Shown: positions 3,211-5,458 of the stretch, piece after piece
Layout: each line of letters begins with the position of its first letter
Position numbering within the stretch: the stretch's first letter is position 1
Assembly: GCA_016209155.1 (NCBI GenBank)
Contig: JACQWU010000349.1
Location: forward strand, 1 to 5,710
Origin: Candidatus Desantisiibacteriota bacterium
Lineage (GTDB): Bacteria; JACRDZ01
Length of the DNA: 5,710 bases
Direction of reading: 5' to 3'
The notes under the pieces: model-generated
The model's database searches: none
What the model was told of the DNA's origin: nothing
Seen by the model: the letters and a program-made list of their open reading frames with translations, nothing else
Position numbers and translations under genes: made by a program

Positions 3211-3726
3211 ATGTCCGGTGATGTGCGGATCAATGAAATACCGGTTACGCAAATGAGCGATAAACAGTTGGCATGCTTGCGCCGTGAACATATCGGATTT
3301 ATTTTCCAGTCTTTTAATTTGATCCCGGTGTTGAGCGTTTATGGTAATGTGGAATTTCCGCTTTTATTACTGAAAACTCCGAAGAAAGAACGCAGGGATA
3401 AAGTGATGGAAACTTTGAAATGCGTCGGGCTGGAAGACCGGGCGGAGCACAAAACAGAGGAACTAAGCGGCGGTCAGCGCCAGCGTGTCGCTATTGCGCG
3501 CGCTTTGGTAACAAAACCGAGCATTATTTTATCCGATGAGCCAACTGCCAATCTTGATTCCAAAACCGGAAAAGCTATTATTGACCTGATGCAGAAGTTG
3601 AATGAAGAACAACGTGTTACACTGGTATTCGCGACGCATGATGCGTCTATTATTTCGCGTGCCAAACGGATCGTCTGCATTCTGGATGGTGTTATATCAA
3701 ATGCTGATGCTGTGTTATCACACTAA
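3211..3726 (+). pseudogene. 5'-truncated LolD/MacB-type ABC transporter ATPase
   Basis: The 171-residue frame matches the C-terminal three-quarters of an ATPase of the lipoprotein-release/macrolide-efflux (LolD/MacB, MJ0796-like) group, normally about 225-235 residues. Present: Q-loop FIFQSFNLI (Q33), signature LSGGQ (85-89), Walker B IILSDEP (105-111, D109-E110), D-loop NLDS (114-117) and H-loop H143. Missing: the first ~60 residues with the Walker A loop, so it cannot bind ATP normally. Similarity begins at SGDVRIN, codon 2, directly after the end of the toxin-antitoxin module. The ATG at 3211 has no convincing ribosome site and probably arose by the junction. No FtsX/MacB-type permease gene follows. 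Composition is much more GC-rich (29 of 60 bases in 3241-3300) than its neighbours. The preserved frame suggests a recent truncation. Confidence 0.8.
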
Positions 3727-3787: not shown

Positions 3788-3854
3788 GGATTTTTCGATT
3801 ATAACAAAGATTCAACAAAAAATCCTACCACCTGAATTTCACATGATGTATAAT
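3788..3854 (+). promoter_or_regulatory. Inverted repeat and -10 box just upstream of the phospholipase D-like gene
   Basis: GGATTTTT (3788-3795) and AAAAATCC (3818-3825) are eight-base inverted arms with a 22-base spacer. Further on, a consensus TATAAT (3849-3854) lies seven bases before the ATG at 3862, so transcription from it would begin at or next to the start codon. No matching -35 hexamer is seen at 3826-3831. The -10 alone is weak evidence in DNA this AT-rich. Confidence 0.3.
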
Positions 3855-3861
3855 AATATCC

Positions 3862-5346
3862 ATGTCTAAAAATATAAAACAAATATTTTTAATTTCAATT
3901 GCACTAATCTTAATACTCGCACAAAGAATTTTTACTGAAGATGTTTCCGATATCATCAATAGAAAATATTTTCCTGTTGTAAAAGAAGTACTGGACAAGG
4001 CAAAAAAAACAATATTTATGGTTATGTATATTGTAAATATGGATGAAAAAAACACGCAGTCGGAAGTTTATCAGCTATGTAATAGTTTAACTGATGCAAA
4101 AAAGCGCGGTGTGAAAATTAAAATAATTTTAGACCAGAGTATTGATTATGAAAAAACAGGGGATGGAAACGGTTTGCGTATTGAAGAAAAAAATCAAAAT
4201 GCGTTCAGATTTTTCAAAAAAAACGGTATTGAAGTTTATTATGATACCCGGACTATTTTTACGCACAGTAAAGTTATAGTCGTAGATGAAAATATAGTTA
4301 TATTAGGAAGTACTAACTGGTCAGATTCGGCTTTAAAAAAAAATAATGAAACATCTGTTTTAATAAAATCAAAAAATCTGGCAAATTCATTACTTGAAAA
4401 TTTTTCAGAAATTGCTATTGATAAAGAAGCCGGCGGGGATATAAAAAATAGCGGGCTTCCGCTGGCAATATATAGATATTTTCTGGAAAATGAAAATCTT
4501 GCCGGCAGGATGATAACCAAACAGGATGAGAGGGCGTTTGACCTTTATCTTTTAATATTACGCGAATTTAAAAGCAACGCTTCAATAGATTTTAATTACG
4601 ACAAAATGGCAATGTATCTCGGAATAGATAAAACTATGGATAAACCCGCTTACAGACGGCAGATTATTAAAACTTTAGATAAGCTTAACGAAACATATCA
4701 TCTTATTAGATACGAACCGCAGTTTGGAAAAAATGCGAAAGTAACATTACTTAATTTAGAAAATAGTGAACTGCTGTATAAATATCCGGAAGAAAAATAT
4801 TTTATCATACCGGAGGAATATTTTAGCTTCAAATGGGACAGAAAGCTTTCCTTTAACGCAAAATTTTGTTATCTGATAAACCTGTACAAAGTAAGCTTAA
4901 ATAGCAGCGGTCTGTGGTGGAGCAATGCGCAGAAAATCCTCAGCGAACAATTTCATTTACATATAAGCACAATAAGCGAAGGGATGAATGAACTAAAAAA
5001 TTACAAAATTATTGAAATACAATATTCCAGTATACAGGAAGGCTACGAATCAAGAGAACCTGCAAAATATAAGTTATTTGATTTATACGATCCGGTGAAA
5101 CAGGCAGAAAAATTTGAAAACCTAAAAAAATTGTATAGCGCGGACAGAGTCAATCAGGCAAAAGAATTTGCCAGAGTTGTTTTTGAAGATAATAATCCTG
5201 CGATTGTTGAAGATATAATTTTATTAATTGATGAATTCGGAATAGAAAAATACCGCAAAGCTATAAACATAGCTTCCCAAAAAGCAGCAGATAATCCTAA
5301 AAGAACACATAAATATGTTGTTGGAATTCTGAGGGGAATGGATTAA
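3862..5346 (+). CDS. Phospholipase D-like (single HKD) protein with winged-helix and DnaD-like C-terminal region
   Basis: A 494-residue protein, apparently a fusion. Residues 1-25 have a Lys-containing start and a hydrophobic helix (9-20), a signal peptide or membrane anchor with no strong cleavage site. Residues ~34-185 form one phospholipase D half: YIVN (56-59), IKIILDQS (86-93) and the HKD motif H135-x-K137-x4-D142, followed by GSTNW (149-153). One HKD per chain is typical of the Nuc/NucT nuclease group, which dimerises to complete the active site, so DNA or phosphodiester cleavage is likelier than lipid hydrolysis. Residues ~222-285 and ~335-390 each look like a winged helix (YDKMAMYLGIDK; ILSEQFHLHISTISEGMNEL). 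The tail, ~445-491 (IVEDIILLIDEFG, AINIA, YVVGIL), has the spacing of a DnaD-type replication domain. No Shine-Dalgarno precedes the ATG. Exported nuclease and DNA-binding parts in one chain is odd. The PLD call is firm; the C-terminal calls are inference. Confidence 0.75.
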   Translation: MSKNIKQIFLISIALILILAQRIFTEDVSDIINRKYFPVVKEVLDKAKKTIFMVMYIVNMDEKNTQSEVYQLCNSLTDAKKRGVKIKIILDQSIDYEKTGDGNGLRIEEKNQNAFRFFKKNGIEVYYDTRTIFTHSKVIVVDENIVILGSTNWSDSALKKNNETSVLIKSKNLANSLLENFSEIAIDKEAGGDIKNSGLPLAIYRYFLENENLAGRMITKQDERAFDLYLLILREFKSNASIDFNYDKMAMYLGIDKTMDKPAYRRQIIKTLDKLNETYHLIRYEPQFGKNAKVTLLNLENSELLYKYPEEKYFIIPEEYFSFKWDRKLSFNAKFCYLINLYKVSLNSSGLWWSNAQKILSEQFHLHISTISEGMNELKNYKIIEIQYSSIQEGYESREPAKYKLFDLYDPVKQAEKFENLKKLYSADRVNQAKEFARVVFEDNNPAIVEDIILLIDEFGIEKYRKAINIASQKAADNPKRTHKYVVGILRGMD

Positions 5347-5348
5347 CC

Positions 5349-5438
5349 CGTCCCCTCGTCCTTTCATCCTTCGTCCTTCGTCCCTCGTCCCTTCGTCCTT
5401 CGTCCCTCGTCCCTTCGTCCCTTCGTCCCTTCGTCCCT
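5349..5438. repeat. 90-base array of twelve CGTCC(C)T(T) units
   Basis: The array starts two bases after the stop of the preceding gene and consists of 7- or 8-base units: CGTCCCCT, CGTCCTTT, CATCCTT, CGTCCTT, CGTCCCT, CGTCCCTT, CGTCCTT, CGTCCCT, then three CGTCCCTT and one CGTCCCT. A 22-base higher-order unit of three monomers repeats exactly at 5372-5393 and 5394-5415. The + strand is nearly pure pyrimidine apart from one G per unit (and one A). There are no spacers and no inverted symmetry, so it is neither a CRISPR array nor a terminator hairpin. Slippage and unequal exchange would explain the unit-length variation. Confidence 0.9.
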
Positions 5439-5458
5439 CGCATTTAACTCATACGCTT

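Follow-up and report, generated by a model that had tools for sequence, protein, structure and literature searches.

The 5,710-nucleotide stretch of DNA analysed here, referred to as the window, is contig C289 of the draft genome G000 (352 contigs). It raises the question whether the gene at 3862 to 5346 encodes a genuine fusion of a nuclease with a module of the replication machinery and, if so, on which side of the membrane such a protein would work and for what. The ORF proposed for these positions is indeed present, and the opposite strand is stop-rich and closed. The same fusion recurs in seven genomes of three phyla, with up to eight copies per genome, and it is this family (loci L, genomes G) that provides most of the evidence. 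The features are the following.

3820..3861, + strand: candidate -10-like element TGTATAATA, separated from the ATG by a few bases and following a conserved AATCC(T/C)ACCA stretch (upstream comparison)
3862..5346, + strand: complete ORF (ATG start, 494 amino acids, uninterrupted) comprising a signal peptide, a single-HKD phospholipase D (PLD) nuclease and a wHTH/DnaD-like C-terminal module
3862..3936, + strand: predicted Sec-type signal peptide or N-in/C-out membrane helix, residues 1-25 (K-rich N-terminus, then a hydrophobic core)
3982..4413, + strand: PLDc_2 domain of the Nuc/NucT type, residues 41-184 (Pfam, E = 3.2e-25)
4264..4317, + strand: HKD signature HSKVIVVDENIVILGSTN, residues 135-152 (sequence)
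4504..4764, + strand: conserved middle domain with a helix-turn-helix-like pattern, residues 215-301 (conservation among members)
4789..5076, + strand: winged-helix-like region, residues ~310-405 (replication-initiation profiles phrog_186, phrog_678 and phrog_270)
5077..5343, + strand: DnaD-like all-helical domain, residues ~406-494, ending in YVVGILRGM (TIGR01446, phrog_186, helical block in the model)
208-1972 of the window: N4/N6 methylase and MvaI/BcnI-family restriction endonuclease, an ordinary-looking type II restriction-modification (R-M) pair

In a Pfam search of the 494-residue protein, PLDc_2 is the one confident domain. The earlier note had described one HKD half-site, and this proves to be a complete HxK(x)4D(x)6GSxN signature (H135, K137, D142, G149, S150, N152), which is the one given for NucT, Nuc and Zucchini (PMC5714352). 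The nearest solved structures of the PLD part are those of Nuc and of the NucT/Zucchini nucleases: the top matches of a phmmer search include Nuc (1BYR, 1e-7) and NucT (6EHI, 8e-5), and the PLD part of the model aligns with 1BYR over 132 residues (VIA-align, Z 8.3, rmsd 3.4). Two more specific models match the PLD part only and stay below their cut-offs, i.e., the NCBIfam NucT equivalogs (PRK13912) with 44.6 bits, far under the cut-off of 297, and the DISARM DrmC model (NF038319) with 69 bits against 133. NucT is a periplasmic, membrane-associated and metal-independent nuclease that crystallised as a dimer with a twinned active site at the interface (PMC5714352). By analogy, the family protein would form a homodimer with a shared active site and metal-independent nuclease activity. 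The HKD residues are intact in 20 family ORFs. They are degenerate or lost in L083, L092 and L093, and the nuclease is therefore not always needed. In a tree of the PLD parts with Nuc as one outgroup row, on which no conclusion is based, the deep branches are poorly settled, and the tree speaks neither for nor against a single fusion event.

The 300 residues that follow the nuclease are less readily assigned. The best evidence comes from the PHROG profile phrog_186 (DnaD-like helicase loader), which matches six of the eight family members over the equivalents of residues ~310-491 of the window protein. The E value is 4e-5 for the window protein, 2.8e-8 for the best member (L033) and below 0.01 for most others; moreover, the profile matches members of another phylum (L058, 4.8e-5; L060, 3.6e-5). 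The NCBIfam model TIGR01446 (DnaD_dom) gives weak matches of 0.0024-0.0042, with 18 bits against a cut-off of 24.95, and matches the last 47 residues at 0.0024. An hhalign comparison with six cellular DnaD proteins is likewise weak (E = 0.0034, probability 9.5%) and is confined to the last 45 residues, with the YxxxIL motif at the end of the alignment. This motif resembles the DnaD motif YxxxIxxxW, which belongs to a DNA-binding patch (PMC6393240). AlphaFold models built from two-row alignments (window plus one related locus) reached a pLDDT of 49 and 55, with the DnaD-like helical block mostly at 70-88, and a fold search with the tail of these low-confidence models returned no significant structure match. 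The DnaD-like tail that had been suggested from the sequence pattern is thus supported by phrog_186 and, weakly, by TIGR01446. Of the two helix-turn-helix stretches proposed along with it, the second (~355-388) lies within the phrog_186 match, while the first (~246-285) has no profile match: scanned alone against Pfam it yields nothing, and the model has low confidence there. The whole of residues 215-301 is without a Pfam match as well, despite its conservation. Altogether, residues 310-494 probably consist of a winged helix followed by a DnaD-like domain. Such a tail may grip nucleic acid; as its net charge is 0 to +1 per domain and it is not basic overall, DNA binding is proposed on the basis of homology.

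DnaD-type modules are textbook cytoplasmic replication parts. The hydrophobic N-terminal helix described before is present (MSKNIKQIFLISIALILILAQRIFTED), and since positive charge precedes the helix, an N-in/C-out orientation is expected. A signal-peptide-like start, called by a simple hydropathy and charge rule (K/R-rich start, uncharged hydrophobic core of 12 residues), is found in all 24 family ORFs whose N-terminus is intact, compared to 41 of 190 neighbouring control ORFs. By this rule the export signal is universal among intact members, and the 494-residue protein is predicted to be exported. In G003 and G001, the tail even occurs without the nuclease, behind a signal peptide of its own (L038 and L039), and the gene neighbourhood is conserved between both loci. 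That these nuclease-less tails keep the signal peptide suggests that the DnaD-like module is exported in its own right, apparently even alone. An export signal in every intact member argues against a cytoplasmic helicase-loading role for the family.

The protein combines traits of several known systems. With Nuc from plasmid pKM101 and NucT from Helicobacter pylori, it has the signal peptide, the single HKD half-site and the PLD fold in common. Nuc and NucT stop after the PLD domain (155-162 residues in the PDB chains), whereas the family protein adds 300 residues with a replication-protein-like module. With the phage loaders and replisome organisers of phrog_186 and with Bacillus DnaD, it shares the terminal YxxxI(L) and, probably, the succession of a winged helix and a helical DnaD domain. 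These proteins serve cytoplasmic replication and have neither a signal peptide nor a nuclease. The final W of the DnaD YxxxIxxxW motif is M or L in most family members and W in L061. DISARM DrmC has the PLD domain in common, but there is no other DISARM gene in the window. A different nuclease with a borrowed C-terminal DNA-binding domain is the Thioalkalivibrio DNase, in which a ComEA-type tail gives salt tolerance (PMC4777378); there, a DNase I fold is joined to a helix-hairpin-helix tail, whereas the family joins PLD to DnaD. In the literature searched, no description was found of a combination of DnaD, PLD, signal peptide and nuclease.

The evidence supports a real fusion, in which a single-HKD nuclease that is predicted to be exported is joined to a tail resembling replication proteins (probably winged helix plus DnaD domain). 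Our preferred reading, held with moderate confidence, is that of an exported, probably dimeric nuclease of the Nuc/NucT type, which a re-used module from a replication protein keeps on nucleic acid outside the cytoplasm. The chain would be made in the cytoplasm and cross the inner membrane via its Sec signal. Two chains would then pair and, as known from this family of nucleases, combine their HKD half-sites into a single active site for the metal-independent cleavage of DNA and/or RNA. Outside the cytoplasm, the C-terminal module, a relative of phage-type DnaD and replication-initiation proteins, would find a new use: it could grip single- or double-stranded nucleic acid and perhaps multimerise, keeping the nuclease on its substrate. 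The role of such a protein would be to process or destroy DNA that is foreign or comes from the environment, either within the envelope or beyond the cell; candidate substrates are nutrient DNA, the DNA of an incoming phage or plasmid, and that of a competitor. A wider and rather speculative version sees a so far undescribed multi-copy envelope system in several uncultured phyla: modules of replication initiators, exported alone or joined to a nuclease, would capture and cut nucleic acid outside the cytoplasm, e.g., as a barrier to phage or plasmid DNA. We know of no earlier extracytoplasmic use of the fold, either as an exported module alone or joined to a nuclease; if true, this would be the first use of the DnaD fold outside the cytoplasm. 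Besides, the family, of which annotation libraries recognise the PLD part only, yields, from uncultured phyla, a small set of candidate genes for DNA scavenging, uptake or exclusion.

How the family is distributed bears on the reality of the fusion as well as on its role. In a survey of 386 genomes, the tail is present in five. Five of the 44 genomes in the phylum of G090 contain it, each giving several matches; in the phylum of G145 it is one of three. The tail is fused to the PLD part in G000, G003, G090, G400 and G398; it is shortened in G423 and split by an insert in G145. The related genome G003 has four copies in unrelated contexts: three are intact and full-length, with 64-68% identity over the matched part, while the fourth is interrupted by a MITE-like insert of 270 bp that has terminal inverted repeats of 32 bp (L037 5846-6115). 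In the second copy of G000 (L003), signal peptide and PLD start are out of frame with the tail and the PLD domain is largely lost, so that it reads as a decaying copy. Isolated relics of the last 25-50 residues occur elsewhere in G003, G090 and G399. Such a split or frameshifted sister copy, together with a draft of 352 contigs, might suggest that assembly or annotation has joined two genes. The same domain order at similar length is found, however, in more than 12 independent ORFs of several genomes, and dN/dS between copies is ~0.1, low in the PLD part and in the tail, which indicates purifying selection on both halves. As independent full-length copies exist, an artefact is refuted for practical purposes and given next to no probability. 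In its distribution the fusion resembles an accessory gene that is quickly gained and lost and resides in flexible regions, not a member of a fixed operon. Scans of viral contigs revealed no homologues, plasmids and phages gave matches to the PLD part only, and a tblastn search of phages with the tail found no match.

As for the role of the exported nuclease, defence and nutrition are about equally likely, and each taken as a full explanation remains tentative. A periplasmic protein might cut phage or plasmid DNA on entry; its tail would then serve to recognise single strands as they come in, or structures of the replication type. The patchy, multi-copy, fast-turnover distribution is typical of defence genes, the tail is related to phage replication proteins, and toxin-antitoxin (TA) or other defence-type genes are often near the copies (R-M and PIN in the window, HicAB/RelBE/Fic in L003, an OLD-type ATPase in L061). 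The TA and R-M neighbours were, however, assigned by eye and without a control, and the proposal of a defence function from the R-M/TA neighbourhood of the window is not supported: elsewhere the adjoining gene may be of the TA type, an integron integrase, an OLD-type ATPase or a housekeeping gene (many named by eye), several copies being surrounded by housekeeping genes (L033, L035, L060, L092), and in a comparison across copies and genomes no gene is conserved beside the family. PADLOC matches are limited to the PLD fold, with DrmC under its cut-off. Defence is a possible role, for which no conserved partner was found at the family copies examined. Alternatively, the protein may cut environmental DNA for salvage or for a ComEC-type uptake machine. 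NucT, which serves purine salvage and transformation (PMC5714352), is a precedent, and ComEC is present in all five family-carrying genomes of the G090 phylum. Yet ComEC is found in 41 of the 44 genomes of that phylum, with or without the family, and the link is uninformative because the gene is nearly universal there. Moreover, as many as eight diverging copies, accompanied by relics, would be unusual for a nutrient enzyme with a housekeeping function.

Less probable still is a selfish or mobile unit of promoter and ORF that spreads within genomes and has the fusion as its working part. Four to eight copies are dispersed in unrelated contexts, and the tail relics lie at yet other places. The TGTATAATA element is common to the window copy and two dispersed G003 copies (L033 and L036); it is a putative promoter, and being shared by dispersed copies it seems to have been copied together with the ORF, i.e., the promoter seems to travel with the gene. 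Integron integrases lie 0.5-2.4 kb from family copies in three of the seven integrase loci, the other four (L118-L121) having no family member. Against such a unit, paralogues are mostly 60-70% identical or less at the protein level and therefore not recent jumps, three G090 copies excepted. Locus comparison in G003 revealed no shared ends well beyond the ORF, a simple pattern scan found no attC pair (RYYYAAC...GTTRRRY) in the window or beside copies, and a universal signal peptide is ill-suited to a DNA-mobilising enzyme. The more specific idea that the gene is an integron cassette was rejected on the missing attC pairs and on the integrase loci without the family; it is also disfavoured by the promoter-like element of some copies, unlike typical cassettes.

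Several further observations concern the surroundings of the copies. The integrases in question (TIGR02249, over the cut-off) are located at L003 3227-4516, L080 2739-3785 and L086 489-1457. Next to a family copy in L082 (1618-4014), 62-64-bp repeats ending in attC-like GTTAGGC/GTTAGAA lie between small same-strand ORFs, an arrangement that resembles a small array of integron cassettes. The OLD-type ATPase of L061 (3306-5132) is related to the retron Eco8 effector and ends directly upstream of the family gene. In G090, two copies have a metallophosphoesterase-like gene behind them, and one relic has such a gene nearby. Gene remnants are abundant in the window itself, which also contains a PIN-domain gene: a remnant of a UvrA-like C-terminus (MVIDNNPEVIKTADYIIDLGPVN, then a stop) lies at 2155-2234 and a truncated ABC ATPase without its Walker A part at 3211-3726. 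An 85-bp repeat at 2004-2088 was considered as an attC site, but the pattern does not fit and Rfam finds nothing; it occurs at five places in the genome with 91-94% identity. Directly after the gene, at 5349-5440, lies a tandem array of CGTCCCTT, which is not tied to the gene because the same repeat is found in two other contigs (C269 and C307).
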